This document shows positions 3,022-44,956 of a stretch of DNA of 47,195 nt, one piece after another; the stretch's first letter is position 1; each line of letters opens with the position of its first letter. A model generated the notes under the pieces. The model ran no database searches. It was not told the DNA's origin and was given only the letters and a program-made list of their open reading frames with translations. Made by a program: the position numbers and the translations under genes. Source of the stretch: a virus; the IMG/VR virus record IMGVR_UViG_3300017755_004695, positions 1 through 47,195 of that record; one strand, written 5' to 3'.

Positions 3022-4350
3022 TTAAAAACTTATATTAATATTATATATTCCAATTGTTTGATAGCTTAATGCTTCAATCTTAGGGAATAGTATGAAAGCT
3101 AGTAGTATAGCAGGTCTATTTATAGAAAAAGTTTTAGCTATAATTCCTAGCGCTGAACATATAACAAGAGTTATAATGTCAAATTTAGTATTTGTTACTT
3201 GATAGCATGACCAACATATAAGAATCAATATAACAACTGCATAAATTCTTGGTGGTACTTTAAGAATCCATGTAATTGGTACACTCAATATTAAGCAAAG
3301 TAATCCTACAAGTAGTGTTCCTCCAATATATCCAATTGCTAAAGTATCGAAAAATTTATCATCATATTGAATATCAATCGATCCTAGTTCAAAGTGTAGC
3401 ATAAAGAACAGTGATAGTATCACAGCCGCAAATGGCGTACCCGGTATACCAAAAACCACAGTAGGCACAAAGCTCGCTGCATGTACTGCATTGTTCGCAC
3501 CTTCCGGTCCAACAACACCAGCAATTCGGCTATGAGGGTGCTCTCGTTTCGCTCGTCCATAGGATAACCAATCAGCGACTATTCCGTGCACACCAGGGAG
3601 AGCTCCTACAAAGGAACCTATCGCACCTCCAGTTAATGCTACCTTCTTATACTTATACCACGATTTCAAGCCTAATATTACATGTTTAAGATTAGCATTA
3701 AGATTCTCTACTTTAGGCTTATTAACAAACAGGTTTACCAACTCAGGTATAGCAAACAATCCACTTACAAAAATACTAATAGGTATTCCTGACGAAAAGT
3801 ATGTATATCCAAATGTTAACCTCTGAGCATTATTTTCATCAATACCAACATAACCAAACAAAAATCCTATTGCAACACCTAGCAATCCTAGTAACTTATT
3901 TTCTTTGATAAGAAAAACTACACACAGTAGTGCAAAAATATTAAGTAACAGCAATTCAAGCACGCCAAACACGAGAAGTAATTTAGCATAATACGGCATA
4001 AAGAAGAACACTAAAGATCCAAACAGTATACCACAAAGTGTGCTGCTTGTAAAGGCAGAACTTAATGCCAGTGTTGCTCTACCACTTCGCGCAATCGGAT
4101 AGCCGTCAACGACTGTTGCTGCTGAAGAAGATGAGCCGGGTATACCTAACAGTATTGAACTCCATGTATCGCCAGTTGTACATGCCGCAACAAGTGCAGT
4201 GTAGAATAATACACCGAGATATGGATCGTTGTAAAAGTACGGTAGGAATATAAAGCTCGTTAAGAGAGCTGTAGTTGGTCCTGCCGTTGGTATTATTCCA
4301 AACAACAGTCCATACGTTACACCGCAAAAAATAACAAATAATTCAATCAT
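3022..4350 (-). CDS. tctA: TctA-like permease of a tripartite tricarboxylate transporter
   Basis: 442 residues, strongly hydrophobic, with about ten or more membrane segments. TctA signatures are visible: an N-terminal glycine-rich loop (GIIPTAGPTTALL), the mid-protein GALPGVHGIVADWLSYGRAK, then VGPEGANNAVHAASFVPTVVFGIPGTPFAA, which matches the conserved P.GxG...EaannA...PllaLGiPGsp pattern. Typical TctA is about 500 residues, so this is somewhat short. Its ATG overlaps the stop of the upstream PP-loop gene (ATGA). No small TctB-type four-helix gene is seen nearby, so the virus would need the host's TctB, use an A+C-only system, or serve a different solute. Confidence 0.88.
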   Translation of the reverse strand: MIELFVIFCGVTYGLLFGIIPTAGPTTALLTSFIFLPYFYNDPYLGVLFYTALVAACTTGDTWSSILLGIPGSSSSAATVVDGYPIARSGRATLALSSAFTSSTLCGILFGSLVFFFMPYYAKLLLVFGVLELLLLNIFALLCVVFLIKENKLLGLLGVAIGFLFGYVGIDENNAQRLTFGYTYFSSGIPISIFVSGLFAIPELVNLFVNKPKVENLNANLKHVILGLKSWYKYKKVALTGGAIGSFVGALPGVHGIVADWLSYGRAKREHPHSRIAGVVGPEGANNAVHAASFVPTVVFGIPGTPFAAVILSLFFMLHFELGSIDIQYDDKFFDTLAIGYIGGTLLVGLLCLILSVPITWILKVPPRIYAVVILILICWSCYQVTNTKFDIITLVICSALGIIAKTFSINRPAILLAFILFPKIEALSYQTIGIYNINISF

Positions 4351-6347: not shown

Positions 6348-6581
6348 CTATTGTTTTTCGCTTACATATTGATAAAGCTCGTTTGCTTTTGCGATGATCT
6401 CATCCGGTTTATACATAGCGGGTGCGTGTTGCTGTATCGCCTTTTGAATATCTTCACGTTTTTCTTGTGCTTGATCGATCATTCGATACATGATATCCTG
6501 CTGTAAGCAGTAAGTTGAGTCGGCCATTTCTTTGGCCATTCTTAAAGTTTCGAGTCTGATCTCGTATGCGTTTTTAGACAT
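6348..6581 (-). CDS. Conserved small phage protein, 77 residues
   Basis: Preceded by a strong ribosome binding site (CAGGAGGACAAT then ATG). Begins MSKNAYEIRLETLRMAKEMA; predicted almost wholly helical, rich in Gln, Lys and Glu, no membrane segment. Proteins starting MSKNAYE with this helical make-up are, to my recollection, common in T4-like cyanophages, function unknown. It directly follows the coding piece of the tmRNA, so both may come from one transcript. Confidence 0.75.
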   Translation of the reverse strand: MSKNAYEIRLETLRMAKEMADSTYCLQQDIMYRMIDQAQEKREDIQKAIQQHAPAMYKPDEIIAKANELYQYVSEKQ

Positions 6582-6646
6582 ATTGTCCTCCTGTGTGTGT
6601 TAGTGGAGAGATTCTGTTTCCACGCTCTCTCCGAAGCGCATAGGAA

Positions 6647-6709
6647 TTACGCTGCTTGAGCGAACTCCTGAGGTGCAAAATTATCATTTGCATTTAGAGT
6701 TTTGTTCGC
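6647..6709 (-). other. tmRNA tag-peptide reading frame
   Basis: Within the tmRNA coding piece, a frame from GCG at 6709 to TAA at 6647-6649 encodes a 20-residue tag: ANKTLNANDN then FAPQEFAQAA. The ANDNFA core and the EFA.AA end match the alphaproteobacterial tag pattern (AANDNFAEEFAVAA in Caulobacter), though the last four residues are AQAA rather than ALAA or AVAA. The resume codon is inferred; GTT and AAT just upstream are in the same frame. Confidence 0.85.
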
Positions 6710-6778
6710 ATTAACCGAGCTTACATCCGGATAACTCCACATCGCTATTTCGTCCCTGTCGATCCTATTTCAGCCCCA

Positions 6779-6916
6779 TCAGAAAAACTTGGTAAACAAT
6801 TCATTAAAAAAAATATATGCACCATAACCATATACACATACAATGACTGTTTTTAATACCTTGTTCATTTGGTCATCAGCCATATATACCCAGTGGTGAT
6901 ATTTATTTTTACTCAT
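6779..6916 (-). CDS. 45-residue membrane protein encoded inside the tmRNA intervening segment
   Basis: ATG at 6916 has AAAGG six bases upstream and lies 21 bases after the CCA end of the tmRNA acceptor piece. The stop TGA (6779-6781) lies two bases before the GGGG start of the coding piece. The protein starts MSKNKYHHWVYMADDQMNKV and ends with a hydrophobic helix (TVIVCVYGYGAYIFF). The frame fills the segment that RNA processing would discard. Not recognised; a ribosome binding site and a membrane helix favour a real gene. Confidence 0.65.
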   Translation of the reverse strand: MSKNKYHHWVYMADDQMNKVLKTVIVCVYGYGAYIFFNELFTKFF

Positions 6917-7008
6917 AATGTACCTTTCAAGTTTTTATGGTGGAGCTGTCGGGTACCGCCCCCGAGTCCAGCAAACCTTTCGCTTTGTTTCATCGTTATA
7001 TAGTATAT

Positions 7009-7037
7009 ATTATACCACATTTTTTATCATTTGTAAA
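7009..7037 (-). promoter_or_regulatory. Sigma70-type promoter of the tmRNA
   Basis: On the minus strand, TTTACA (7037-7032), a 17-base spacer ending TGG, then TATAAT (7014-7009). This is the same pattern as eleven other promoters in the window. Transcription would start near 7002, just before the acceptor piece. Confidence 0.85.
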
Positions 7038-7046
7038 GGCTTTTTT

Positions 7047-8687: not shown

Positions 8688-8772
8688 TAGTCACCCTCCC
8701 TAATTAATGGTTAGGTGCGTTCCTTCAGCGACTGCCTACTTCCGCCCTTTCGGGTGAACGTTTAATGTATTA

Positions 8773-12366: not shown

Positions 12367-13019
12367 ACTAACATACCTCTTATTATTTCTTTACCTTTTT
12401 GACCTGTCCAATGCATGATTCTTATTTTACCGGAATAACCATCTTTCAATTGTAATCTCATAACATTATATTCATTAGGCAAATCTTGAATGTAACTAAT
12501 CTTAGTAATTGGAGATAATATACTATCAAGTATTTCTTGATCTCCCCAGAATTCTTCTGGAGCCTTATCATGAGATTTTCTAACTGCGCCAGCCCATTGT
12601 GATAATATTATAGGTTTATCTATAAAACCTACTACACCAGAATTATGCCATTTATGACCGCGTCTTTTAGTCCAAGGTTTATCTTCAGCCATTGATAACT
12701 TTTTTGGTTCAAGTGTATCAAATATGCCATCAATATTGTCTTTGACTTCACAATCTAAATCTATCCATACTGTTTTTTTAGAAGGACATTTTAACATAGT
12801 TAAAGGTTTTTTAAACCAACCTCGTTCTTCAATTCCTGTTAAGTCCATGACTGCATGAACATTTGCATGTACAATGTTAAGACCTAAATCGGTCAATCCA
12901 AAATCAGAAAATATTAGTGGCTTGTCACAATGTTTTTTAAAATTCTTAAAAAACCAAGGGAGCATCCATTCATGTCCTGCGTCACATCCAGTTACAAATG
13001 CTTCATCATATGATTTCAT
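12363..13019 (-). CDS. Glycosyltransferase (GT-A fold, GT8-like)
   Basis: 218 residues starting at the ATG at 13019, eight bases after a GGTGAG. The first strand is EAFVTGCDAGHEWMLPWFF. The metal-binding motif is DLDCE in CPSKKTVWIDLDCEVKDN, followed by KWHNSGVVGFIDKP, the NsGv..f motif of GT8-like enzymes, and FWGDQEILDSIL (gDQ). These are the donor-site landmarks of retaining GT-A glycosyltransferases. Donor and acceptor unknown. The gene overlaps its neighbours at both ends. Confidence 0.75.
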   Translation of the reverse strand: MKSYDEAFVTGCDAGHEWMLPWFFKNFKKHCDKPLIFSDFGLTDLGLNIVHANVHAVMDLTGIEERGWFKKPLTMLKCPSKKTVWIDLDCEVKDNIDGIFDTLEPKKLSMAEDKPWTKRRGHKWHNSGVVGFIDKPIILSQWAGAVRKSHDKAPEEFWGDQEILDSILSPITKISYIQDLPNEYNVMRLQLKDGYSGKIRIMHWTGQKGKEIIRGMLV

Positions 13020-13647
13020 ACGTCTCACCATAATTATGTTTAGCGTAACAACCTGCTTTTTGTTGTATTGTAGTAAAACTATCTCTTGCTTCTACCGGCC
13101 AAGGATAGTATTCTCCTAAAGTAAATTTACTTGAATGTATATATATGTCTGTTGGACCTGCACTGAATGCACATTCATCTATCAATTGTTGTGCACCTTT
13201 TGGTGTTAATCTATATCCGTGAGCTCCAGGGAAATATGGTTTCGAAACTAAAGATCCATAACCTATATACGATGGTGTGTTAAACTTACCGTATGATGGC
13301 TTACCTAAGTTTAAAATATCAAACATCATCATTTGTGGTATATCACCAACTAGCACCGCGTCATGCTCAAATATTACTATCGGCTCTTTAGATCTTACAC
13401 ATTTTTTCCAAAGACTATGATGACTTAAAAATCCTGCAATACAATTTTCTGGTCTACTATATTTTTCATGAAATAATGCTTCTGGATAATTAAGCTTTTT
13501 CAATTCTTCATATACATCACAATTTTGTGGACTATAAGCTTTATGTTTTTTAATCGCGTAACCAAACACTTTACCGCTTTTTACACACCTGTCAGCAACC
13601 TGTACTGATCTTTCGTTTTCCATTATTGTTATTACATGCATCTTCAT
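13006..13647 (-). CDS. GT25-like glycosyltransferase (copy 1)
   Basis: 213 residues. CIAGFLSHHSLWKKCVRSKE then PIVIFEHDAVLVGDIP is the core of GT25 (LPS/collagen glucosyltransferase) enzymes: aC..SH..lw..... and a DxD-like EHDA. Late in the protein, PGAHGYRLTPKGAQQLIDEC matches the family's aY.ls..gA..l. It is a diverged tandem paralogue of the next gene (13644-14342), which has GFLSH/CFLSH and EHD at the same places. Function: transfer of a sugar to LPS, protein or another acceptor. Confidence 0.78.
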   Translation of the reverse strand: MKMHVITIMENERSVQVADRCVKSGKVFGYAIKKHKAYSPQNCDVYEELKKLNYPEALFHEKYSRPENCIAGFLSHHSLWKKCVRSKEPIVIFEHDAVLVGDIPQMMMFDILNLGKPSYGKFNTPSYIGYGSLVSKPYFPGAHGYRLTPKGAQQLIDECAFSAGPTDIYIHSSKFTLGEYYPWPVEARDSFTTIQQKAGCYAKHNYGETYEII

Positions 13648-14342
13648 AGTGTTGTCGTTGACCTCAATCCTTGTATTCTCGTATAGAAGTTACGTGTTAC
13701 ACCAAGTTTTGGTACAAGTTGATAACACATTAGTGCGTCGTTTGGCCACATACCGTATTCCTGAGCAAGATCAATCATCTTACGTGCACCTTCTGGTTTC
13801 ATGACATAAGCTGAGTTACCTGCCAAACCTTGTGGTATATTAAACTCGTCTATCCTAGGAACTGGTTGAAAGAAATCAGTTCTTTCCAATATCATATCGT
13901 GATACATTTTTGATTTGCGTGTCGCCATTGACGGATCATTTATACCGATAATATCAAGTTCTGCTCTTGCAAACGTGCTGTCTGCTGGTAATTTTTTTAT
14001 AAACCTAGAGTCATGTTCTAATATTAGTATTGTTTCATCAATCTTTTTACAGTGTTGCCAAAGATACCAGTGACTTAAAAAACAAGAGATACGTTTTCTA
14101 GGATCTGCGGTAGTGTATGCAGACTTTATCATTCCACTTTTTAAGTCTGTTTCTTTACCTTCCCATGGATAATTCCACACTAAGCCATTGCCACCAGTGT
14201 AACCTTCTACCTTATCAAGCGGTATCGCTTCATGCATTTCTAATCCATCGTCATGACCATACTTATCGTAACTCTCTTTAAGTTCAGCGTATCCAGCCAT
14301 CGATGTTTTATTATCTGGTACAACTATTGCAAATGCTTTCAT
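13644..14342 (-). CDS. GT25-like glycosyltransferase (copy 2)
   Basis: 232 residues with RISCFLSHWYLWQHCKKIDE, then TILILEHDSRFIKKLP, and LAGNSAYVMKPEGARKMIDL, the same layout as its downstream neighbour. Tandem duplication with divergence suggests the two act on successive residues or different acceptors. ATGA overlaps on both sides place it firmly in the operon. Confidence 0.78.
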   Translation of the reverse strand: MKAFAIVVPDNKTSMAGYAELKESYDKYGHDDGLEMHEAIPLDKVEGYTGGNGLVWNYPWEGKETDLKSGMIKSAYTTADPRKRISCFLSHWYLWQHCKKIDETILILEHDSRFIKKLPADSTFARAELDIIGINDPSMATRKSKMYHDMILERTDFFQPVPRIDEFNIPQGLAGNSAYVMKPEGARKMIDLAQEYGMWPNDALMCYQLVPKLGVTRNFYTRIQGLRSTTTL

Positions 14343-14770
14343 TTTACTATCCTTACGTTATCACCATCTTCGATGTAATATTTTCCAATACAATACCTGT
14401 TTAAATTCTTTTGACGTGTGATTGCAAAGTTGTTAACGTTGTCTATTATGATGTCAAACCTAGGATTATTCCAGATATTTTCCATAATGTCTCTTATACT
14501 TTTTTCACTGCTTGTATCGCACCTAGACCAAAATATTCTTTTCTCTTTTAGATAATCATATTTATTAGGTTGACTTCTATCAAATTCATCTATGCAATAT
14601 ATGTTTGATCTTTCTAAAAATCTATGCCACACTGGTATGCTACTCTCGATTCCAACTTGTAATAGATTTATTGGTTTATGGCGATATTCAAATAATTCTT
14701 TTTCGTAGAATAAAGAGTGCTGTTCTCTATTTGATTTATATCTTTTAAATAAAATATCAAGCACGTGCAA
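14339..14770 (-). CDS. Class I SAM methyltransferase-like protein, short form
   Basis: About 143 codons; the start is TTG at 14770 or GTG at 14764, as no ATG is available. KPINLLQVGIESSIPVWHRF followed by SNIYCIDEF is a motif I region (vG...g.s..w...ip..iygiD) of the family of small methyltransferases found in glycan and antibiotic clusters. Next come a DTSSEKSIRDIM segment and FDIIIDNVNN (motif IV-like DlIIDDg). Normal members run well over 180 residues, so the C-terminal half of the domain is short. Possibly a sugar O-methyltransferase or a degenerate remnant. Confidence 0.55.
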   Translation of the reverse strand: MHVLDILFKRYKSNREQHSLFYEKELFEYRHKPINLLQVGIESSIPVWHRFLERSNIYCIDEFDRSQPNKYDYLKEKRIFWSRCDTSSEKSIRDIMENIWNNPRFDIIIDNVNNFAITRQKNLNRYCIGKYYIEDGDNVRIVK

Positions 14771-15488
14771 ATCTATCTAAAGCTGCACCACCATATACAC
14801 TGTGATGATTATCATCTTTACTTAACACTTGATACCAACCATATTCTGCCGGCCAAAGTTTCTTTTCTTCATGTAGTTTATGAACGTTTTCTGTATCAAA
14901 TATTTTTCTTGGATGTATAATTAAATTATCATTTAGCCACCATGCCCAATCTCTGCTCCAAGTTTGATCTGTTTCTTCCGTAATGTAAACATGTTCAATG
15001 TCTTTAAATTTATTTAAATGAATCCATCTACCACCACGTATGGCAAATCCAATAGCAATATTATCATTATAAGATTGATTTAAATAATGAGTAAAATCTG
15101 CTCTCTCACCAATAATAGTATCCCATCGAGTTCTTACAATCATGTCATACTCTTCAGGTAAGTCAGCAACTTGATAAGCGTGAGCTATAATTTGTTTTGT
15201 AGCGTTGAGAAGTTTACCTTGGCTGGATTGACCAGTTCCATTTACAAAATCTTTTTTGTAAGCATGATATTTTGGATGAGGATTATCGGTTACACAATCT
15301 TTCCACGGATTGTAATGCATTTGTGGCTCAGGATAATATTTGCATTTATAGTTTCTTGACCTATCATCTTCATAAGCTTCCCATGTTGAATAAAAAATAT
15401 CCGCATCTGGAAATGCTTTTTTTACTGAATCAATATTTCTCTTATGCTTGTCTCTAATAAGACCTGATACGCAAATAGCAATTTTCAT
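14757..15488 (-). CDS. Putative glycosyltransferase, 243 residues
   Basis: Starts at ATG 15488, sharing a base with the upstream stop (TAATG). MKIAICVSGLIRDKHKRNID is the first strand; YDMIVRTRWDTIIGERADF contains the RxRxD motif used as the metal-binding site in a group of bacterial and phage glycosyltransferase-like proteins; a C-terminal WPAEYGWYQVL follows. Resembles proteins in capsule clusters and in marine phages. Acceptor unknown. Immediately downstream of the nucleotidyltransferase. Confidence 0.65.
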   Translation of the reverse strand: MKIAICVSGLIRDKHKRNIDSVKKAFPDADIFYSTWEAYEDDRSRNYKCKYYPEPQMHYNPWKDCVTDNPHPKYHAYKKDFVNGTGQSSQGKLLNATKQIIAHAYQVADLPEEYDMIVRTRWDTIIGERADFTHYLNQSYNDNIAIGFAIRGGRWIHLNKFKDIEHVYITEETDQTWSRDWAWWLNDNLIIHPRKIFDTENVHKLHEEKKLWPAEYGWYQVLSKDDNHHSVYGGAALDRFARA

Positions 15489-16219
15489 TATAAACTCTCT
15501 ATTTGTTCCCACCAAACACTATTTTTAAATTCGTTTAATTCTTCTGGTGTTCCCATTCCTATCATTTCATCTATACGATGTACTCCAACATTTTCTTCTA
15601 AGTAATTATATGTAGGTGCTAAATAAAATTCATTATTTGTTCTATCATTTGCAGCCATTTGTTTTTCATGTGCTTTAATCCAATCACACTCATCGCTAAA
15701 ATAATAAACGCCAACTGTTGCAAGATCGCTTATGATTTCTTTTTCTTTAAGTTGTAATAAACTATCATATTTATCGACCTCACAATAACTGTGTTTTGGT
15801 TCGTTATGATTTGGTGTAAACACTGGTATTAGGCCACCCGGATATAAATTACTGTCTATTTTTTCATAAAACTCTTTAGGATCCCATCGCATCAACTGAT
15901 CACAATTTGCAACTATCATAGGTTCACCACCTAATACATTTGTAGCTAGCCTAACAGTGCATGCTGCACCTTCGGTTGTACCCGGTATGATTATAATACG
16001 AGCATCAGAATAATGTTCTAGAATACGTTTATCAATTTCATATTCATCAACATGGTCTTGTCTAACTATGCACGTCAATTCTGCATTATTGCACCATAAG
16101 TTTTCAATAACTCGTGCAAACATAGGTTTGCCTTTAATATCAATTAAAGGTTTCGGTAAATCATAACCAGCATCAAAAAATCTTTGACCGTTTCCAGCCA
16201 TAGGTAGTATCAATTTCAT
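15488..16219 (-). CDS. Sugar-phosphate nucleotidyltransferase
   Basis: 243 residues. The opening MKLILPMAGNGQRFFDAGYD then LPKPLIDIKGKPMFARVIEN is the LxxAGxGxR...PKp...gkP signature of RmlA/GlmU-type nucleotidyltransferases. EPMIVANCDQLMRWDP supplies the metal-binding Asp (NcDq for the usual gDn/nsDq). It activates a sugar-1-phosphate, or related phosphoester, with an NTP. It is coupled by ATGA overlap to the RuBisCO-like gene directly upstream, so the two proteins are made in tandem and may act in sequence. Confidence 0.85.
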   Translation of the reverse strand: MKLILPMAGNGQRFFDAGYDLPKPLIDIKGKPMFARVIENLWCNNAELTCIVRQDHVDEYEIDKRILEHYSDARIIIIPGTTEGAACTVRLATNVLGGEPMIVANCDQLMRWDPKEFYEKIDSNLYPGGLIPVFTPNHNEPKHSYCEVDKYDSLLQLKEKEIISDLATVGVYYFSDECDWIKAHEKQMAANDRTNNEFYLAPTYNYLEENVGVHRIDEMIGMGTPEELNEFKNSVWWEQIESL

Positions 16220-17295
16220 TAATCTAAACTTTCTCTCATCTCTTTCACTTTTTTAATTAGTTTATCACCAGTATGTAGCCAACCACCAACTGATGCCATA
16301 AAATCATTGCCAATGCGTTCTTTAATTTCTCTAGCAAGAACTGGATTCATACCACAACTTAATGAAGGTATCACATCATATTTTTTACATATATCAATCG
16401 CTTCTAGTGTTTCTTCTTCACTTTCGCCTTCTGGATAGTAACCACCTAACATACCAACATGCATACTATCAACACCAGCCATACAACCGAGTTTAACTAA
16501 AACTGGCCAAGCTAAAGAATATTTGTTACTTGGATCTGTAAGTATTCTAATTCCAGATCTTTGGTAATGCGTGGCGATATCAAATCCTCTTGCAGTTGTA
16601 TATGCACCTAGGCCTGACCAAAAGTTAATATGACAACCGCCGACAATATTGTCTGTACAAGTATGATAATGAATCTTCTTTATATTACCTAATAATTCCA
16701 TAGGATCTGCATTTATACAATATGCAAAGAAACCTTTCCAACCTGAAATATTTTTTAAATGTTCGACTGCCTCAACTCTTTTTTCTAGAGGTAAGTATAA
16801 ATTTTGTGCCATGATTTCATCTTCTTTAATAAAATCTGCACCACCATAAACCATTTCTTTAACTATGAACATGTATTGTTCCATATTTAAACCTGATTTA
16901 GGTTTTATTATTGCACCGAATAAAGGTCTGTGTTGTGCGTCTAATCTGTTTTTCCAACCTGACATACCTAAAACCGGTTTTACATTATCAACATCAATAT
17001 CAATATCTAATACTCTGCATCTATCAACACCTAAGATATCAGTGTGACCACCCATAATAATACACATAAGTTGATTTACGTTTGGCCAAATAAATGCGTT
17101 TCTATTGAATTCAATTTTTACTATATTTCCTTCAACACTAATTACCTGTGCAGCATATTCTTGTATATTATCTGCAGTTTCTATTTCTGATCTAATGTTA
17201 GGATTGCCAATACTTTGTCCGATAGCAATTTCATGTGCTATCTTTGGAATATCAGGACCATCGACCTCGTATGTTACTATGTATCTTTTGTTCAT
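16219..17295 (-). CDS. RuBisCO-like protein (form IV-type RLP)
   Basis: 358 residues with the RuBisCO large-chain layout. The N-terminal alpha/beta domain (about 1-105) includes YIVTYEV and FIWPNVNQLMCIIMGG; the TIM barrel follows. FGAIIKPKSGL (K131, K133) aligns with the loop carrying spinach K175/K177. GGADFIKEDE (K157, D159, E160) matches the carbamylated Lys201 and metal ligands Asp203/Glu204. H279 in MHVGMLGG fits His327. Carboxylase residues are missing: Asn123 (GGHT here), the Glu60/Thr65 loop (GQSIGNPN), His294 (Q245) and loop-6 Lys334 (Tyr). It is therefore an enolase/isomerase-type RLP. It is shorter than typical forms, and sits between a methyltransferase and a nucleotidyltransferase with four-base overlaps. 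Confidence 0.88.
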   Translation of the reverse strand: MNKRYIVTYEVDGPDIPKIAHEIAIGQSIGNPNIRSEIETADNIQEYAAQVISVEGNIVKIEFNRNAFIWPNVNQLMCIIMGGHTDILGVDRCRVLDIDIDVDNVKPVLGMSGWKNRLDAQHRPLFGAIIKPKSGLNMEQYMFIVKEMVYGGADFIKEDEIMAQNLYLPLEKRVEAVEHLKNISGWKGFFAYCINADPMELLGNIKKIHYHTCTDNIVGGCHINFWSGLGAYTTARGFDIATHYQRSGIRILTDPSNKYSLAWPVLVKLGCMAGVDSMHVGMLGGYYPEGESEEETLEAIDICKKYDVIPSLSCGMNPVLAREIKERIGNDFMASVGGWLHTGDKLIKKVKEMRESLD

Positions 17296-17912
17296 ATTCT
17301 TATCTCGTATTGTGTTTCGCCGTGTCTAAGCATTTTAGTTAACTTATGTTTATTTATAAATTCGTCTACAGCTTTTGTTACACCTGGCTTAAACCATTTT
17401 GCATTTGGCCAACCATAGTCATCTCCTAAAATCAATCCACCCGGTTTCACAACATTCAATGAATTTTCTAAATCTTTTAAACACCCTTCATATGAATGAT
17501 CACCATCAATATAAATCCAATCAAGCATCTCATTATTGCCATGTCCTTTTGCTGCCATAAATTGTTCGAACCACTCGTCCGATGTCATTCTACATAATTC
17601 AACTTCAGGATCAATTTTAAATCTTTCCTTTACTTCCTCATAAACTCTATCATAATATTTTAAAAATCCTGTTGGAGCAATTTCACCAGTTACTTTAGCA
17701 TATTTAGCAAGATATTCTTGAAAAGACATTTCGCTATTTTCTTTATATGGTTCTACGGAATACGAATCAACCATATACAATTTTTTTAAACCTTTTTTTA
17801 AAAATTGTGTTGAAGTGTTGCCGAACCAAACACCTATTTCTGCACCTGTTGTATCAGGTTTTATTACATGCATTATGTGTCTTGAGTCTTTATTTGTATG
17901 AGTTGCCATCAT
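17292..17912 (-). CDS. Class I SAM-dependent methyltransferase (Methyltransf_24-like)
   Basis: 206 residues. TGAEIGVWFGNTSTQFL is motif I (E.GVwfG.ss), KLYMVDSYSVEPY motif II, MLDWIYIDGDHSYEGCLKDL the hallmark DgdHsYe..l.Dl, and LNVVKPGGLILGDDYGW the post-IV GG.i..DDy. This family methylates small molecules or sugars, often O-methylation in glycan clusters. Coupled by ATGA to the RuBisCO-like gene downstream. Confidence 0.85.
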   Translation of the reverse strand: MMATHTNKDSRHIMHVIKPDTTGAEIGVWFGNTSTQFLKKGLKKLYMVDSYSVEPYKENSEMSFQEYLAKYAKVTGEIAPTGFLKYYDRVYEEVKERFKIDPEVELCRMTSDEWFEQFMAAKGHGNNEMLDWIYIDGDHSYEGCLKDLENSLNVVKPGGLILGDDYGWPNAKWFKPGVTKAVDEFINKHKLTKMLRHGETQYEIRI

Positions 17913-18688: not shown

Positions 18689-19026
18689 TGGCTTTTCTTT
18701 TCGGTTATTTCGCTGCCAAAATATATATCAATACGTTTTTTAGTTTCATGTCTTAAATCATTTATTTGAGTAATAAGAAATGCAGTATTAGATTCTTCTT
18801 TACTAAATCTTTCTACATCTTTTCTTTTAATATCTTCTAAATACCACAACTGTTGATTAATTGCTAACATAATACCTAAATAAAAATCAAACCCTGGATG
18901 AGTTAAATCAAGACTTTTGTATTGTTTTAATTCTGTTGCAACGTCAAGACCTTCGTCTTGTTTTATTACTAATATAGAATACCTATCTATGTATTCACCC
19001 ATACTTATATCAATTTGAATTTTCAT
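18685..19026 (-). CDS. DUF6165-like protein
   Basis: 113 residues, all helical. MKIQIDISMGEYIDRYSILV then IKQDEG resembles the N-terminus of DUF6165 proteins (GE.iDk.tIl.iK), which accompany LPS and capsule glycosyltransferases; the remainder is a charged coiled coil. No enzymatic motif. Overlaps both neighbours by four bases, which suggests co-translation with the two glycosyltransferases. Confidence 0.6.
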   Translation of the reverse strand: MKIQIDISMGEYIDRYSILVIKQDEGLDVATELKQYKSLDLTHPGFDFYLGIMLAINQQLWYLEDIKRKDVERFSKEESNTAFLITQINDLRHETKKRIDIYFGSEITEKKSH

Positions 19027-19820
19027 TGTACAATCTCCATCAACTCTTGAACATTTTCACCATTATTCGGTAATTTATCTTTAAGAAAGAAATGTACGAA
19101 ATATGCTTCTTTTATTTTATCATTTGGTATTGCTGTATAAAGTGCATTCCATTTCCAGTTAAGATAAGTCTGTACCATATTTTCTTTCTTAACCCAATAA
19201 TTTAATAGTGTCTGATCAGTGCTCCATTTCCATGCACCTTGGCCATCAACAAAGTCTTTAAACTCAGGTCTTTGTATAAACTCTTTTCCACTTTGTCCAT
19301 TTAAGTATTTAGTGATTTTTTTATCCATGAGCATTAAACCCATATTATAAAATAATGCTCCATTTTCATGTGTCCACTCCCAATTGACATCTTTGAGATT
19401 GGAATACTGCATTCGAGTATATCCTACTAATTTTTGTTTGTACCACGGGAGGATTGGCGCCATTCTTTCCACAACTCCGGCAAACTCAGTGGTTCCACCG
19501 AAATTATCCAATTCCAAGAAGATGTTTGGTGTTTCAGGGCGCACCCAGATATCAGCATCAATAATGCAAATCTGGTCATACCTATCAAAATAATCGAGTG
19601 CATTTTCTTTTTCATAAATTGGTAAGAATCCTCCATATTTTTCATATGACTCTTTACTACGATTTGTTGCAAATACGTCAGGTTTAATCATCATTTTGGG
19701 GATTGTTTGTACTATATAATCTACAGAAATTCTATCAGCATAAGCTTTAACCGAAGCTGTACAGTGATCATACAACTTCGATTTTTTACCAGTGTAAACT
19801 TGATATATCAATCTCTTCAT
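19023..19820 (-). CDS. GT-A glycosyltransferase, first gene of the sugar cluster
   Basis: 265 residues. RLIYQVYTGKKSKLYDHCTA is the first strand. ALDYFDRYDQICIIDADIWV carries the DxD metal motif (DAD), and ENGALFYNMGLMLMDKKITK the N.G.m.. acceptor-loop motif. GAWKWSTDQTLLNYWV is like the DQ.lLN of GT8-type enzymes. It opens the leftward run of eleven overlapping genes to 11749. Confidence 0.75.
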   Translation of the reverse strand: MKRLIYQVYTGKKSKLYDHCTASVKAYADRISVDYIVQTIPKMMIKPDVFATNRSKESYEKYGGFLPIYEKENALDYFDRYDQICIIDADIWVRPETPNIFLELDNFGGTTEFAGVVERMAPILPWYKQKLVGYTRMQYSNLKDVNWEWTHENGALFYNMGLMLMDKKITKYLNGQSGKEFIQRPEFKDFVDGQGAWKWSTDQTLLNYWVKKENMVQTYLNWKWNALYTAIPNDKIKEAYFVHFFLKDKLPNNGENVQELMEIVQ

Positions 19821-29314: not shown

Positions 29315-29343
29315 ATTATACCATAAATTCGTCTAATTGTAAA
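29315..29343 (-). promoter_or_regulatory. uvsX promoter embedded in the end of the C5-methyltransferase gene
   Basis: Minus strand TTTACA (29343-29338), 17 bases ending TGG, TATAAT (29320-29315). The bases from -35 to -10 encode the last residues of the upstream protein (LQLDEFMV), and its stop TAA lies within TATAAT. Confidence 0.8.
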
Positions 29344-30512
29344 GGTTTATTTTCACTAATTATCGATTGATTTTTATTATCTTGAATCATAAAATCTTGA
29401 TTCCATAATTGATTATCTAATCTGCCATCACAGAATCTTAAAACATTTTCTGCCATGTCTGTTGCAGTAGTAACTGGTACATTTTGACAGATATGATTTA
29501 AATTTTTTACACCACCTTGTAAAATAAAGTCTTGTGGTAATCCCATTATGTTTAAACATTCTCTTATAGTGAGATGTCTATCAATATCAGGATGTGTAAG
29601 TTTAGTAGGTGCACTGCCTACAAATGCACCTATGTAATTCTTTGGTATATATACACCTCTTCTCATTATATTACCACCAGATGCTAGTTTTTCATGCATT
29701 ACTTTACACCGCACTGCTTGTTTTTCAAAACCATTAGATGACATCCATTTTGATACTTCATTATATGTCACACGTTTATCTTCAATGTAATGAAGAACAT
29801 CATAACTCTTTTTGATTTTATTTTGAAATTCATTATGAGTTATGCCACCTTCAAGTTCTTCAAGTACATATTTGTAATACGGATCATCAGACGGTGTTGC
29901 TGAGTTTGTAAGTACATTCATTGGATCATCTGAATTATTATGAGTTGACCTAATAGTATCTTCAATCTTTTGATGTTTTCTTTTTACATAACTTAGTTGT
30001 GGTACTTTGTCGCCTTTCCAAAAGAAATAGAAAGATCTATCTCTTACTTGTCCGAGTCCATGAAGGAGAGACTTTGTTTTATATAACGAGAAAGTGTAGC
30101 CATGCTCTCTTCCAATTTGACGGAGACCTTCAACAATAGGCTCTCCCATCTTTGAAGCAAGTCTTGGTGCGTTTTCGCCCCAGAATACTTTAGGTTTGAG
30201 TGTACCCAAGACATAATTAGCAGAGGTAGACATCCAATCGTTAGCAGCAGCATCAGAAGATGCTGAAGTATTGAGACTAGACAAGCCAGCACAAGGACAT
30301 ACGGTATTAACAACATCGACAGAAGGTAAGTCGTATGACCTGTTATTTCCCAAAAGATAGTAGGGAACTTGTCCTTTATAATATTCCACCAAGTGTGTAT
30401 CGTTTGCTTTGAAATCTTCATAACTTAATATGTACTCCGGTTTCTTTTTGAAAACATTTTGCATTGCAATTGTTTCGCCACCTATAAGTGGTACTATGCT
30501 TGCATAATTCAT
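29316..30512 (-). CDS. DNA (cytosine-5) methyltransferase
   Basis: 398 residues. Catalytic Cys is in VVNTVCPCAGLSSLN (PC motif IV); KPKVFWGENAPRLA is motif VI (EN); YKTKSLLHGLGQVRDRSFYF is motif VIII (QxRxR). After a roughly 150-residue target-recognition region, HPDIDRHLTIRECLNIMGLP then QDF is motif IX (Rx.t.rE...lqg.P.df), with a motif X-like NVPVTTATDMA. Motif I is shortened (SIVPLIGG at the very N-terminus). The tail QLDEFMV resembles the clamp-binding tail TLEDFFV of gp43 and the neighbouring glucosyltransferase. It heads the DNA-modification island. Confidence 0.85.
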   Translation of the reverse strand: MNYASIVPLIGGETIAMQNVFKKKPEYILSYEDFKANDTHLVEYYKGQVPYYLLGNNRSYDLPSVDVVNTVCPCAGLSSLNTSASSDAAANDWMSTSANYVLGTLKPKVFWGENAPRLASKMGEPIVEGLRQIGREHGYTFSLYKTKSLLHGLGQVRDRSFYFFWKGDKVPQLSYVKRKHQKIEDTIRSTHNNSDDPMNVLTNSATPSDDPYYKYVLEELEGGITHNEFQNKIKKSYDVLHYIEDKRVTYNEVSKWMSSNGFEKQAVRCKVMHEKLASGGNIMRRGVYIPKNYIGAFVGSAPTKLTHPDIDRHLTIRECLNIMGLPQDFILQGGVKNLNHICQNVPVTTATDMAENVLRFCDGRLDNQLWNQDFMIQDNKNQSIISENKPLQLDEFMV

Positions 30513-31261
30513 TAGAGTGCAATCGTTTTCTTTACGAGATAATCTTCAACTTCTACTTTTGGTTCCCAACCTAAAGCTCTCATTTCTGAAATATCTGCAG
30601 TATTATCTTGTGCCTCACAAGGATCACCATCTCTTATTTCGATACCTTCCCATCCTGCAAGTATTCCAAGATCCATAACTACGTTTCCTACACCCGTACC
30701 AATATCATATGCCGGTTTTAATAATCTAATATCTTTACTTAAGAGTAAAACTATTGCTTCAACTACATCACTAACGTGTACAAAGTCTCTTACGTGTCTT
30801 GTAAGATAACCAATTGAACCATCAATAAGTTTACCAATAAGCATGGATTCTCTAGCTCCATCACCATAAACAGTAGTAAATCTTAAAGCTACTTGATTTT
30901 GCATAGCTGTTTCTTCATTTACTTTTTTACTTGTCCCATAAGGTGATAACCACCAGTTATGTATGCAAGAAGATGATGCATATAATAATGGTATGTTATT
31001 GTAACCACATATCTTTTGTATACGTGTAGTATTATTTACATTATTAGTCCAATACTTTTGTGGTTCTTTAAGACTTTGTCTTACATCAGCGTATGCAGCT
31101 AAATGCACAACGTGTGTTACATCGTTAGGACTAAAGTCTTCTATATCTTTTGATGGTTCATGTCTTAAATCCCATTCAACTACGTCATGGCCATCAGCTT
31201 CAAGCTTAGTTTTTAAGTGGCCGCCTATAAAACCACTTGATCCTGTAATTGCTACTTTCAT
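30512..31261 (-). CDS. NAD(P)-dependent sugar epimerase/dehydratase (extended SDR)
   Basis: 249 residues. MKVAITGSSGFIGGHLKTKL is the GxxGxxG nucleotide-binding motif. VTHVVHLAAYADVRQSLKEP is the HLAA strand, and LLYASSSCIHNWWLSPYGTS then K carries Ser and YxxxK (YGTSK). VALRFTTVYGDGAR is R..nvYGp. Shorter than typical UDP-sugar epimerases (about 310). ATGA-coupled to the glucosyltransferase upstream, so it likely makes or modifies the nucleotide sugar that enzyme uses; this link is inference. Confidence 0.85.
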   Translation of the reverse strand: MKVAITGSSGFIGGHLKTKLEADGHDVVEWDLRHEPSKDIEDFSPNDVTHVVHLAAYADVRQSLKEPQKYWTNNVNNTTRIQKICGYNNIPLLYASSSCIHNWWLSPYGTSKKVNEETAMQNQVALRFTTVYGDGARESMLIGKLIDGSIGYLTRHVRDFVHVSDVVEAIVLLLSKDIRLLKPAYDIGTGVGNVVMDLGILAGWEGIEIRDGDPCEAQDNTADISEMRALGWEPKVEVEDYLVKKTIAL

Positions 31262-31283
31262 ACGAAAAAATCCTCCAATGTTG
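31258..31283. repeat. 26-bp direct repeat shared with the 3' end of the polymerase gene (copy 1)
   Basis: Identical to 39106-39131 over 26 bases. It covers the last codons of agt (LEDFFV region), its stop, and the ATG overlap with the next gene. Same reading frame and same ATGA-type junction in both places. Confidence 0.9.
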
Positions 31284-32529
31284 TTTCATTCTTTTCATTA
31301 TAATTTAGTGTATTATTTATGATGTCGTTATATACCGTCTCAGCATCACAATGTTCTTTCCAAAATTCATACATCATGTTTCTCCATGCATTTCTCATTA
31401 CATTGTCATTTGCAAGAGCAATCATTTGTGAACAAACAGCTTGTGCATTTGATGCATCAACAGCTAAAGTACCTGTATCTTTACATTGACTTATTGGCTT
31501 ACCTTGCTTTTTATGTATTACATTATCACAAAAGTGTTTATGGAATAGAGGTATTACACCTGCTGCAAATGAATCGGTGTGGCAGTACTCTACATTATCA
31601 CCATATATATTTTCTTTAAAATACATAAGGTCAGAACCAAATCCACCTAAACTCATTCTTTCCATCATTTCACTATGTGTATATGCACCATATAAATACG
31701 CACCTTGATTTGTTGTTTCAGCACCGTACTCTGGATGTTTACCAGTGTTATCAATACCTTTTTCAGGTCTAAAATAATTCACCACTTGTCTTCTATCAGT
31801 CATTTCTTTTGGATTCTTATAAAGAACAGCAGGATAATTTATCGAAGCTTCCAATCCTTCAAGTATTGTAATGAAATGATTTTTACGAAGCTGATCATTA
31901 TGGAAATCAATCATTACATCCGGTCCTTTCCACATAGCGGTACGACCAACCCATCTTACTAAGTAAGGGTTCTGATGTTCAATAGGTTTCCAATACTCTT
32001 TATTGAAGTTAAAACCTACTTGCATATTAGTTAGCGGTGTTTTGATATTATTCTTTTTAACCCATTTACCAAAAGGATTGTCAATATAGTGACACATTAG
32101 TACATCGACTTTAGAACATATTTCAGCTAAGCCGGCATTCCTATTTATAGAATGTATTTTATGGTCTACTTGAACTAAAGACTTACGTACTTTAATTTCA
32201 TCCATCATTTTTATAAAGTTACTTATACAATCTTCTGGATGTGATTTAGATGGTACGCTCCAAACAATACACATGTCGAGTTGATTGATTCTTTCAATAA
32301 CCTTTGAACATGTTAATAAGTCTGGAAATTTCTTTGATGGCTTACTAACCTCATCCCAATCTGTACCTCTAAAGTAGTTTACTTTAAAGTCCATAGAGTT
32401 CATTCTTTGCCATAGTTTATCAATAGTAGCAAATACTTCTACGCCAGGGAAAAGCTTTTGAAACTCAACTACATTCTTAGTTAAGCCTACGCCTTCAACA
32501 CCTCTACCTAATAAGACACCTACTTTCAT
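31258..32529 (-). CDS. agt: T4 alpha-glucosyltransferase homologue (DNA hydroxymethylcytosine glycosyltransferase)
   Basis: 423 residues (T4 AGT: 400). Several blocks match T4 AGT as I remember it: the start MKVGVLLGRGVEGVGLTK (T4 MRICIFMARGLEGCGVTK), YLVRWVGRTAMWKGPDVMID (T4 RWIGRTTTWKGFYQMFD), ITILEGLEAS (T4 TVMEGLERS) and HSEMMERMSLGGFGSDL (T4 NSEMLERMSKSGFGYQL). AGT transfers glucose from UDP-glucose to 5-hydroxymethylcytosine in DNA. The same window encodes dCMP hydroxymethylase (33312). The C-terminal TLEDFFV is identical to that of the gp43 polymerase, a probable clamp-binding tail; T4 AGT is reported to bind the gp45 clamp. Sugar identity is not shown by the sequence. Confidence 0.88.
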   Translation of the reverse strand: MKVGVLLGRGVEGVGLTKNVVEFQKLFPGVEVFATIDKLWQRMNSMDFKVNYFRGTDWDEVSKPSKKFPDLLTCSKVIERINQLDMCIVWSVPSKSHPEDCISNFIKMMDEIKVRKSLVQVDHKIHSINRNAGLAEICSKVDVLMCHYIDNPFGKWVKKNNIKTPLTNMQVGFNFNKEYWKPIEHQNPYLVRWVGRTAMWKGPDVMIDFHNDQLRKNHFITILEGLEASINYPAVLYKNPKEMTDRRQVVNYFRPEKGIDNTGKHPEYGAETTNQGAYLYGAYTHSEMMERMSLGGFGSDLMYFKENIYGDNVEYCHTDSFAAGVIPLFHKHFCDNVIHKKQGKPISQCKDTGTLAVDASNAQAVCSQMIALANDNVMRNAWRNMMYEFWKEHCDAETVYNDIINNTLNYNEKNETTLEDFFV

Positions 32530-36806: not shown

Positions 36807-36891
36807 TGGCTGTTGGGGCAGGAGTCGAACCTGCACGCATTTCAGCACACGAGAAACAATCGTGCGTGTCTACCAATTCCACCACCCAACA
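36807..36891 (-). tRNA. tRNA with GUU (Asn) anticodon on a leucine-like class II body
   Basis: 85 bases with encoded CCA (36809-36807). Acceptor TGTTGGG/CCCAACA is seven perfect pairs. The D-arm region GTGGAATTGGTAGACAC is the usual tRNA-Leu sequence. The anticodon stem CACGA/TCGTG holds loop TTGTTTC, giving anticodon GTT with U at position 37, where purines are normal. A 13-base variable arm (TGCTGAAATGCGT) is the long class II type, as in tRNA-Leu. T-arm GCAGG TTCGACT CCTGC is canonical. Discriminator is G, as in tRNA-Asn and tRNA-Ser, not the A required by LeuRS. It lies six bases downstream of the synthetase-like gene. Confidence 0.88.
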
Positions 36892-36897
36892 ATAAAC

Positions 36898-37713
36898 CTA
36901 TATGGTCTCTAAAGCCGGGATCATTCTTGTTATTCCAATTCCTCCACCAACTCTTGGAAAGAAATCAAACTTTAAGAATTCTTCTAACTCTGCTTCTACT
37001 CTTTCTTTACCGAATAAATCAAATAAAAGATTAGCATAAGCACCTTCAGTTATTGTATGAAATGTATCACGCATTTGATCCACATCAGTTGATCTTTCTG
37101 CTGATCCTATTGTTTCCATACCTCCAAGAATAACATCAATCTTTTTAGAATGTATTCCATCTTCATATCGACTCATATTCCAAAATGGACTCGTAAACTC
37201 TGGAAAGTCAGTAATCATTGTTGTTGTGTAATCATCAAACATCTTACCTTCATGCTCTGCAGTAAGTTCTCCATCAACACCATACTCTTTTTGCCATTCA
37301 GAATATTTCTTTTCTATTGGCTTTTTAAATCCTAAGTATTCAACGAGTTCATATTCCATTCTTGCAAGATCATATATGTTACCCGGCATTTCAAATTCAA
37401 ACATCGGAAAGATTATATCGTGTCTTCCGGGTATTGCATTTGGTTCTTGCCTATACGAAGTGGAGACACAAAAAAACCCCTTAGAATCAGGGGCGGATAA
37501 TAATTCGTGTTCTAACCACATTTGACCTGTTTGTGGCAGTGGCCATACTTGGCCTGCATAATTGTAAGTTGCAACATTGAATGGATCTTCGCATGCTGCA
37601 AGGATAGATAATCTATTTTGAGTGTGTACTTCTAAAAAACCTTTATCTAAAAAAAATGACCTTAAAAGGCCAACTGTGTCTGTGAATTTTTGGGGTGATA
37701 TGAGTTGTGTCAT
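36898..37713 (-). CDS. Class IIb aminoacyl-tRNA synthetase core (Asp/Asn type) without anticodon-binding domain
   Basis: 271 residues from the ATG at 37713 (AAGGA upstream). Motif 1 region: LLRSFFLDKGFLEVHTQNRL. Motif 2: FFCVSTSYRQEPNAIPGRHD then FPMFEFEM (R88, E90, R97 H98, E106/E108), the fR.E......RH..eF...e.E pattern of AspRS/AsnRS. KIDVILGGMETIGSAERSTD matches the Asx-RS D..L.G.Ei..g..R..d strand. Motif 3: VGGGIGITRM (R263). The N-terminal OB-fold that reads the anticodon is absent, as in AspRS/AsnRS paralogues that make free asparagine or modify proteins. The GUU tRNA lies directly downstream, so tRNA charging must be considered. Confidence 0.85.
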   Translation of the reverse strand: MTQLISPQKFTDTVGLLRSFFLDKGFLEVHTQNRLSILAACEDPFNVATYNYAGQVWPLPQTGQMWLEHELLSAPDSKGFFCVSTSYRQEPNAIPGRHDIIFPMFEFEMPGNIYDLARMEYELVEYLGFKKPIEKKYSEWQKEYGVDGELTAEHEGKMFDDYTTTMITDFPEFTSPFWNMSRYEDGIHSKKIDVILGGMETIGSAERSTDVDQMRDTFHTITEGAYANLLFDLFGKERVEAELEEFLKFDFFPRVGGGIGITRMIPALETI

Positions 37714-37747
37714 GATAATTCCTTCATCTGTTTTTACACGCAATTGT

Positions 37748-43035: not shown

Positions 43036-43892
43036 TTATAAGTTTGCTCTAATCTAAATTCCAAATATTCATCACTGAAAACTGGACGATACTTTGTTGG
43101 TGTGTCATGTATATTAACTACGGCTGTTCTCGGTTTAGGATCAACAAAATGTGGCATACTATATCTTGGTAAATGTATGTGTGAATTTACAACTCTATGT
43201 TTTGTACTTACAAAATAATCATTAGTCCATCTTTGTAATAGATCACCGATGTTAACAACGACTCCATCTTTTGCATAAGGAACTGGATGCCATTGGCCTT
43301 CTAAGTCTTGTACTTCCAACCCTGGTACATCATTAATCTGCCATAATAGTGTAATGGTACCGTAGTCAGAATGTTCACCTATTCTCAATTGTTTTGGTTC
43401 AATGTCACCTTCATATGCTGGATAGTGTATAAACCTTGTAGTACTATAGTTTTCTTTATGTGCATCAACAAGAACAGTACGGCTTTTCATTATATTATCA
43501 AATTTTTCTAATATATTAAGTGTAAGTCTATCTGCTATATCAATACTTTCTAAAGCGGATGGTTTAAAATCTTTTATTTCTGTTGGCCAGTTTGTAGTTC
43601 TTTTATCGTTATAATTAAAACTCTCTTTCATATCTTTTGGTGCGGTAGGATCCACGTTTTCTTTTAACCACATAGTGTAACCTATATTAGATTCAATACC
43701 TTCATATGCGTATTGCATCTTTTTTTCGAGAGATAAAGTAAAAAATTCTTTCATTTTCTCCGACCAAGCTTCCATTGAATCCTGCTCATGAGATGTTAGG
43801 CAATCAGTAAATACAGCGAAGCCTACAGTCGTGTAGGCTTCTTTAATTTTATCGAGGACGTTAGGCCCTTTAAAATCAATTACTGGTATCAT
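43032..43892 (-). CDS. 2-oxoglutarate/Fe(II) oxygenase, isopenicillin N synthase family
   Basis: 286 residues. The DIOX_N part is FKGPNVLDKIKEAYTTVGFA then VFTD. Core: HSDYGTITLLWQINDVPGLE gives the HxD pair, VPYAKDGVVVNIGDLLQRWT the v.iGD.l..wtN motif, and KHRVVNSHIHLPRYSMPHFV the distal His plus RxS 2OG-binding motif (R.S replaced by RYS). All cofactor residues are present. Substrate unknown. Between a purine-type binding protein and APRT, both coupled by four-base overlaps, so a purine or nucleoside substrate is a reasonable guess. Confidence 0.9.
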   Translation of the reverse strand: MIPVIDFKGPNVLDKIKEAYTTVGFAVFTDCLTSHEQDSMEAWSEKMKEFFTLSLEKKMQYAYEGIESNIGYTMWLKENVDPTAPKDMKESFNYNDKRTTNWPTEIKDFKPSALESIDIADRLTLNILEKFDNIMKSRTVLVDAHKENYSTTRFIHYPAYEGDIEPKQLRIGEHSDYGTITLLWQINDVPGLEVQDLEGQWHPVPYAKDGVVVNIGDLLQRWTNDYFVSTKHRVVNSHIHLPRYSMPHFVDPKPRTAVVNIHDTPTKYRPVFSDEYLEFRLEQTYK

Positions 43893-44956
43893 TTTGGCAC
43901 CGTAGCGTCTATGCCTTCGACATAGTACATCATGCTATTTAAATGAGCATCACTAGCAATCTCTCCATCTTTTAATTGAAGTTTACCAGTGTTGTCTTTA
44001 ATAGGTCCAGTGAAAGCAAAGTACTTACCATCTGTAATACCTTCTTTAATTTTCTGTGCAAATGCTTCAACATCTACAGGCATATTAGTAAATGGCGCCA
44101 TTTGTACGACATCATCTTTCATATGACCAAAGTAATCTCCAGTTTTCCAATTACCATCTATAACTGCTTGTACCTTTTCAATATAATAAGGAGACCAGTT
44201 ATCGATAGTAGCAGTAAGCTGTGCTTTTGGTGCAAATCTTATTTGATCAGAAGCCTGACCAAAACCTGTTACACCATTTTTCTGTGCAGTTTGTAGAGGT
44301 GCAGGTGAATCAGTATGTTGAGCTACCATGTCACATCCTTCTGCAATCATAACCGCTGCAGCATCAGCTTCCTTAGGTGGATTGTACCAAGAGTTTACCC
44401 ATACAATATCGATGTCAACTTTTGGATTCATTTTCTTTGCGCCTAAGTAGAAAGTATTAATTTCTCTAATTACTTCAGGAATTGGAAATGCACCTACATA
44501 ACAAATCTTATTTGTTTTAGTCATCATTCCAGCGATAATTCCTTGAACGTGTCTTGCTTGATATAATCTTAAACCATAGCTAGCCATGTTTTCAGATTGC
44601 TTGTAACCAGTTGCATGTTCAAATTTTACATTTGGAAATTCTTTAGCAACTTTTAACATAGGTTCCATATAACCAAAAGATGTAGCGAATATAATATCAG
44701 CTCCGTCTTTTGCCATAGCCCTTATTGCTCTTTCGGCATCAGGTCCATACTTTACACTTTCCATGTATATAGTTTCTACTTTATCACCAAAATGTTTTTC
44801 AACATCAAGTCGACCAATATCATGTCTGTAAGTCCAACCGTGGTCGCCGATAGGTCCTACGTATATAAATCCAACTTTCACCTTGTCAGCGTACGCTGAC
44901 AAACAAAAAAACAAAGACAGTGTTGCCACTGCCATTGCGTGCAGTATCGATTTCAT
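43889..44956 (-). CDS. BMP/PnrA-family solute-binding protein (ABC transporter)
   Basis: 355 residues with a signal peptide (HAMAVATLSLFFCLSAYA, then DKVK). KVGFIYVGPIGDHGWTYRHD is the BMP family start (kvgfv..g.igD.gwn...h.G). DIIFATSFGYMEPMLKVAKE, FPNVKFEHATGYKQSENMAS and KICYVGAFPIPEVIREINTF are the successive family strands. BMP proteins bind nucleosides or purines. Genes for the permease and ATPase are not seen, so it would plug into host transporters. Next to APRT, supporting purine uptake. Confidence 0.9.
   Translation of the reverse strand: MKSILHAMAVATLSLFFCLSAYADKVKVGFIYVGPIGDHGWTYRHDIGRLDVEKHFGDKVETIYMESVKYGPDAERAIRAMAKDGADIIFATSFGYMEPMLKVAKEFPNVKFEHATGYKQSENMASYGLRLYQARHVQGIIAGMMTKTNKICYVGAFPIPEVIREINTFYLGAKKMNPKVDIDIVWVNSWYNPPKEADAAAVMIAEGCDMVAQHTDSPAPLQTAQKNGVTGFGQASDQIRFAPKAQLTATIDNWSPYYIEKVQAVIDGNWKTGDYFGHMKDDVVQMAPFTNMPVDVEAFAQKIKEGITDGKYFAFTGPIKDNTGKLQLKDGEIASDAHLNSMMYYVEGIDATVPK

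Follow-up and report, generated by a model that had tools for sequence, protein, structure and literature searches.

What a RuBisCO-like protein (RLP) might do for a virus, when its gene overlaps those of a nucleotidyltransferase (NTase) and a methyltransferase, is the question raised by the DNA analyzed here, the IMG/VR record IMGVR_UViG_3300017755_004695 (47,195 nt; hereafter the 47-kb window). We examined the identity of the protein and its active site, the distribution of its relatives and the genes that accompany them, and weighed the pathways that these features may indicate.

Source contig and host

The window encodes a gp43/T4-type DNA polymerase, a UvsX-like recombinase and a DnaB-like helicase, which supports the original prediction of a T4-like phage; the polymerase is ~50% identical to that of phage C48C1 and ~45% identical to those of T4-like cyanophages. 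A permuted tmRNA of the alphaproteobacterial type (6556–7041, minus strand; Rfam alpha_tmRNA, 120 bits; tag ANDNFAPQEFAQAA) suggests an alphaproteobacterial host. Because blastn searches with this tmRNA for a host species returned only short matches to the conserved core, we name the host no more closely than as probably an alphaproteobacterium.

Several other elements were recognized on the minus strand of the window. These include a glutamine riboswitch aptamer (8714–8762; RF01739, 54.6 bits, gathering score 35), a TctA family tricarboxylate transporter protein (3022–4350; PF01970, 280 bits), whose neighboring open reading frames gave no match to TctB or TctC, a tRNA-Asn lying directly by a short class II aminoacyl-tRNA synthetase-like protein of the D/K/N family (281 aa; 36807–37743), and a Bmp/PnrA-like ABC substrate-binding protein (43889–44956; PF02608, 180 bits), the start of which has a resembling counterpart in the related contig L074.

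The RLP is a member of the RuBisCO superfamily

The RLP gene (16219–17295, minus strand) encodes 358 aa and overlaps the NTase gene (15488–16219, minus strand; 243 aa) by 1 nt and the gene for a class I methyltransferase (17292–17912, minus strand) by 4 nt, with all three open reading frames and the overlaps on both sides as originally described. Profile, PDB and fold comparisons, together with the tree described below, agree on its proposed place in the RuBisCO superfamily. The protein matched PF00016 with 76 bits (E = 3.5e-21; cutoff 30.1), and among proteins in the PDB, its sequence matched several RLPs and, at E = 1e-20, a form III RuBisCO. An AlphaFold2 model computed with the family alignment as input was of high confidence (pLDDT 90, pTM 0.89), and its best PDB matches in Foldseek were form III RuBisCOs (e.g., 2d69 and 3a12; TM 0.85, 387 columns), in a list that also held form II enzymes and one RLP. 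With the PF00016 catalytic barrel and the N-terminal domain fold, the window protein is a true RuBisCO-superfamily member, and it belongs to the form IV RLPs in the broad sense, in which the superfamily fold is combined with replaced carboxylation residues.

The RLP frames of the related phage contigs L054, L055 and L057 carry ~20 extra upstream residues that are Pro-rich and include an in-frame ATG, and the true start codon may therefore differ among phages. At L077:849-1977, the RLP gene is split into two overlapping frames, reflecting either an assembly error or a broken gene.

The active site retains the metal and P2 phosphate residues

Residue equivalences were derived from a MAFFT alignment of the clade (33 aligned members) with forms I, II and III, MtnW and OiaX. 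The KPK loop, the carbamylation-site Lys with its Asp and Glu ligands and the His327 equivalent, all claimed for this protein at the outset, were present in the alignment. In the window, the segment from the K131-P-K133 loop to K157, D159 and E160 is encoded at 16816–16905 (minus strand), and that from Q245-R246 (the H294 and R295 positions) to H279 (H327) at 16459–16563 (minus strand). K131, K133, K157, D159 and E160 (K175, K177, K201, D203 and E204 in RuBisCO) were invariant in 33/33 aligned members, and the carbamylated-Lys/metal site is predicted to be retained. H279, S313 and G315 (H327, S379 and G381) were kept in every clade member with the region present, and G338 (G403) in nearly all of them, while the R295 position is occupied by Arg in phages (R246) and by Lys in cellular members; R246, S313, G315 and G338 extend the set of retained residues beyond those listed previously.

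The residues that mark bona fide RuBisCOs of forms I–III through their roles in carboxylation and RuBP binding had been reported as absent, and the alignment bears this out: the window has G26 in place of E60, N31 of T65, G83 of N123, Q245 of H294 and Y286 of K334. Further replacements affect H298 (I249; Asp in cells), G380 (C314), W66 (Asn, Tyr or Asp) and G404 (Trp in phages, Ala or Ser in cells). Gly at the N123 position is invariant across the clade, as are Q245, Y286 and C314, and the invariance of the latter three argues for an active site that is specialized rather than decayed.

In RuBisCO, the residues kept here serve enolization of the substrate and hold its C5-end (P2) phosphate, while most of those lost here serve CO2 and the C1-end (P1) phosphate. 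The P1 residues T65, W66, K334 and G404 are lost in the aligned clade and the P2 residues retained, a pattern from which the clade would be expected to bind just one phosphate, at the P2 end, through R246, H279 and S313. This is approximately the mirror image of the form IV RLP MtnW, the DK-MTP-1-P enolase. Both share the metal site and the K175-type base, lack the CO2 residues and have Gly at the E60 position; however, MtnW keeps W66, G403 and G404 and has lost R295 (Pro) and H327 (Leu), whereas the clade RLPs keep R295 and H327 and have lost W66 and G404. The MtnW substrate is a 1-phosphate, in agreement with the MtnW residue pattern. Identity with MtnW itself was rejected, with scores of 43 bits for TIGR03332 (cutoff 513.6) and 54 bits for NF007095 (cutoff 409) and a position outside the methionine-salvage clade.

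The clade spans phages, bacteria and archaea

Searches of IMG/VR identified 36 related contigs with RLPs 60–92% identical to the window protein. Adding the window itself and L031 brings the number of viral contigs with the gene to 38; L031 was binned to a Bacteroidota MAG, but we count it as phage because of its phage-type genes (e.g., one whose sequence reads as a PhoH-like ATPase). No clade RLP was matched in 50,697 GenBank phage records, and there are hence no relatives among the cultured phages in that set. Among sequenced genomes, cellular relatives with 32–39% identity, most of them full length, were found in SAR11 and other marine bacteria, Azospirillum, Elusimicrobia, Verrucomicrobia, DPANN archaea and three Legionella species. 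Four of these (L038, L043, L047 and L050) are taken as cellular because the RLP lies on long chromosomal contigs, and three others (L033, L046 and L051), on MAG contigs of 3–4 kb, might be misbinned. The family profile separates full-length members (~490 bits or more) from other RuBisCO homologues (247 bits or less). Clade RLPs are rare, occurring in 2/297 SAR11-order genomes and, in the class samples, only in the genome that had seeded the search (1/369 and 1/385).

In a maximum-likelihood tree, all members formed one clade (bootstrap/SH-aLRT 100/100, stem 0.72) apart from forms I, II and III and from MtnW-like, OiaX-like and other RLPs. Within it, the proteins from phages constitute a single subclade (100/100, branch 1.19) that is nested among cellular members, which points to uptake from cells and a long evolution in phages thereafter; the phage lineage probably gained the module from bacteria. 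The RLP is under purifying selection, with NG86 dN/dS values, rough because dS exceeds 1, of 0.05–0.07 relative to most near phage relatives, 0.15 relative to L059 and ~0.24 relative to the two most divergent ones. Low dN/dS and the presence of the gene on 38 viral contigs exclude a chance occurrence.

The RLP is paired with a nucleotidyltransferase

The NTase is of the sugar type, matching PF00483 (NTP_transferase) with 43.5 bits (cutoff 21.2), phrog_3980 at E = 1.5e-48 and PDB entry 4evw at E = 6e-14. The RmlA, GlmU, GalU, MurU and HddC equivalogs all scored far under their NCBIfam cutoffs, and the family is too broad to fix the sugar or the nucleotide.

The coupling of RLP and NTase, first proposed from this single locus, was found in related phages and far beyond them. 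Downstream of the RLP, the NTase was present in 33/33 phage contigs with enough flanking sequence; in 31 of these it lies within ~0.3 kb, either adjacent or with just a cupin-like gene between, and in the other two (L074 and L075) it is 1.4 kb away. Every cellular locus with enough flank likewise has the NTase beside the RLP, within ~0.4 kb in SAR11, a Crocinitomicaceae MAG, Azospirillum, Elusimicrobia, Legionella, Verrucomicrobia and one archaeon; none was detected on the 3–4-kb contigs L046 and L051, the latter of which ends within the RLP. Cells from several phyla have members of the clade, so the pairing is no invention of viruses.

NTase groupings largely follow those of the RLPs, uniting Azospirillum with Legionella, Verrucomicrobia with the archaeon and one SAR11 type, and L033 with L035. 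The exception is formed by the NTases of L032, L034 and L038, which group with NTases from cyanophages without an RLP; the paired NTases are therefore not one exclusive lineage, and the presence of this NTase does not imply that of an RLP. Thus, the NTase can do without the RLP, whereas the RLP seems to need the NTase. In the Synechococcus phages L190, L191 and L192, the same NTase family occurs without an RLP, as part of longer genes whose annotations are HAD hydrolase, thymidylyltransferase or phosphatase, and glycosyltransferase genes are nearby in L190 and L192. In four SAR11 loci (L036, L037, L039 and L041), the RLP cassette lies between ThyX-like and Mrp-like ATPase genes (names from sequence), as if inserted at a hotspot, and includes a second, divergent NTase without the usual GxGxR motif.

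Neighboring genes

The remaining genes of the phage cassette are also on the minus strand. The methyltransferase (17292–17912) is of the Methyltransf_24/TylF-like type (PF13578, 58 bits), lies upstream of the RLP and is found near it in a subset of phages. The NTase is followed by a conserved protein of unknown family (14757–15515), a candidate transferase with homologues at the same position in 17 phage loci, no Pfam match and, at its N terminus, a weak profile similarity to a SAR11 neighbor. Two glycosyltransferases of family 25 (GT25) lie further downstream (13644–14342 and 13006–13647; PF01755, 44 bits each). Three unannotated genes are conserved in the phage cassette, namely 14339–14770 (gene cluster 5, common to phage loci), 17918–18688 (gene cluster 23, 8 loci) and, upstream of the RLP, 19023–19820 (gene cluster 4, 16 loci).

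A cupin of ~107 aa accompanies the RLP in three phages (L031, L076 and L077) as well as in L033, L035, Azospirillum and Elusimicrobia; comparison with the PDB gave only chance-level matches. Several RLP loci lie in surface-polysaccharide clusters, with L038, L035 and L045 situated amid genes for GDP-mannose dehydratase/epimerase, WecA-type transferase, aminotransferase or flippase. A WavE-like transferase considered as common to phages, SAR11 and archaea was dropped because the profile comparison was weak.

A proposed pathway and its alternatives

Together, these data lead us to propose, with a probability of roughly 0.6, that the RLP is a metal-dependent enolase or isomerase that converts a sugar-like substrate with one phosphate into a product that is then activated with a nucleotide and placed on a glycan. 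A phosphorylated sugar-like metabolite would be held by the predicted P2-type phosphate residues R246, H279 and S313, and the RLP would move a proton by means of the carbamylated-Lys/Mg site and a Lys175-type base, resulting in enolization, isomerization or epimerization. The adjacent NTase would then couple a nucleotide to this product, either at once or after a further conversion, and the activated group would be moved by a transferase of the same cassette onto a glycan, with a surface polysaccharide as the likeliest acceptor. We infer the class of substrate, the type of reaction, the order of steps and the acceptor, and the keto/aldose rearrangement of a sugar just before nucleotidyl transfer, as originally suggested, would be one version of this pathway.

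In favor of this pathway, the metal and base residues are invariant while N123, H294 and K334 have given way to equally invariant Gly, Gln and Tyr, and P2 residues are kept and P1 residues lost, in mirror image to MtnW. Further support comes from the constant NTase neighbor in phages and in cells of several phyla, the largely parallel groupings of the two proteins, the same cupin in phages, Azospirillum and Elusimicrobia, LicD in the three Legionella species, the polysaccharide genes (GDP-mannose dehydratase, WecA-type, flippase-type and aminotransferase) near some cellular RLPs and the GT25 genes of the phage cassette. Counting against it are the breadth of the NTase family, the non-exclusive NTase lineage, the 1.4-kb gap in L074 and L075 and the alignment-based assignment of the phosphate site, as well as the GDPD-like and LicD genes, which could point to a phosphodiester-linked alcohol.

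In that case, the main alternative but one that we regard as unlikely, a CDP-activated polyol or other alcohol, rather than a sugar, would be formed, with LicD-type transfer of a phospho-group to the glycan and the RLP building or isomerizing a keto precursor. A LicD gene (147 bits) is divergent from the RLP in all three Legionella species, most other cellular loci encode either a full-length GDPD (L045 and L049) or a half-length GDPD-like protein of ~150 aa with HRG/ExD/HD motifs (most SAR11 loci, L033, L035, Azospirillum and Elusimicrobia), and the NTase weakly resembles IspD and CTP:inositol-phosphate cytidylyltransferase. However, profile searches of the phage loci found neither LicD nor GDPD, and the naming of the half-length protein is weak, relying on motifs and weak profile matches: its PDB match is at E = 0.004 and, although its fold was predicted confidently, Foldseek matches to GDPD were not significant (~E 0.3).

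Decarboxylation or transcarboxylation of a phosphorylated keto-acid sugar, as by an OiaX-like enzyme, is a distinctly improbable activity for the RLP. OiaX was among its NCBIfam matches, and OiaX and related RLPs, which are found beside four-carbon acid sugar kinases, share the metal site, R295, mostly H327 and a setting in sugar-phosphate metabolism. Yet identity with OiaX was rejected (NF042437, 75 bits versus a cutoff of 700), the OiaX-like proteins form a separate tree clade, are catabolic and keep K334 and T65, both lost here, and no four-carbon acid sugar kinase was recognized beside the loci examined. Unlike OiaX, the clade RLP sits with an NTase, in several cases in biosynthetic clusters.

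That the activated sugar is destined for phage DNA rather than a surface glycan seems very improbable. The window does hold a C5 cytosine DNA methylase, an epimerase-family gene and a gene of the DNA alpha-glucosyltransferase family (PF11440, 118 bits) in a row (29316–32529, minus strand), a possible DNA sugar-modification cassette; these genes are 12 kb from the RLP, however, and it is GT25 genes that adjoin the RLP cassette, with some cellular homologues amid surface-polysaccharide genes. Finally, a genuine RuBisCO raising host carbon fixation can be dismissed almost entirely: although archaeal form III enzymes are the nearest fold and PDB sequence matches and share the fold, KPK loop, carbamate/metal triad and R295/H327/S379/G381, the clade has lost N123, H294, K334, E60 and T65 with other residues fixed there, is set apart from forms I–III at 100/100, scores 101 against a rubisco_III cutoff of 497 and has another gene context, including polysaccharide genes in cells. 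An auxiliary role in carbon fixation was rejected because of the same active-site residues and the tree.

Discussion

A review by Tabita from 2007 reportedly names an environment-only clade of form IV. Roles reported for RLPs include methionine/MTA salvage and apiose catabolism (PMC6302742). Landfill viromes and those of the Great Salt Lake have yielded rbcL-like genes of viruses (PMC12607003, PMC8506154); compared by description, these likewise belong to the RuBisCO superfamily and lie on viral contigs, but are reported as carbon-fixation or RbcL-like genes, with no nucleotidyltransferase module described in the available portions of those papers. The 2007 GOS survey placed 65 marine RuBisCO homologues in groups outside the known forms (PMC1821046), in the available text without assignment to viruses or gene neighbors, and these homologues may include clade RLPs. 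In the open-access papers searched, we found no link between any RLP and a nucleotidyltransferase. We consider the clade to represent a new lineage of RLPs, associated with a new gene module, and its members are very probably not carboxylases.

More tentatively, and at somewhat short of even odds, the proposed enolase or isomerase may belong to an unrecognized biosynthetic pathway common to marine phages, SAR11, Legionella and DPANN archaea. The RLP would there supply the precursor from which a new nucleotide-activated group for glycan decoration is formed, with the RLP and NTase as core, the cupin, GDPD-like and LicD proteins as accessories, and a P2 phosphate site combined with a new Gln/Tyr/Cys active site. 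To our knowledge, this would be the first biosynthetic role, as opposed to salvage or catabolism, of a RuBisCO fold outside CO2 fixation, and one borne by phages. Culturable Legionella type strains with RLP, NTase and LicD offer concrete targets. A further caution is that rbcL genes called automatically on contigs of marine viruses may stand for glycan chemistry rather than carbon fixation. That phages, bacteria and archaea all have the clade together with its nucleotidyltransferase suggests a recruitment of the RuBisCO fold also for making activated glycan building blocks.
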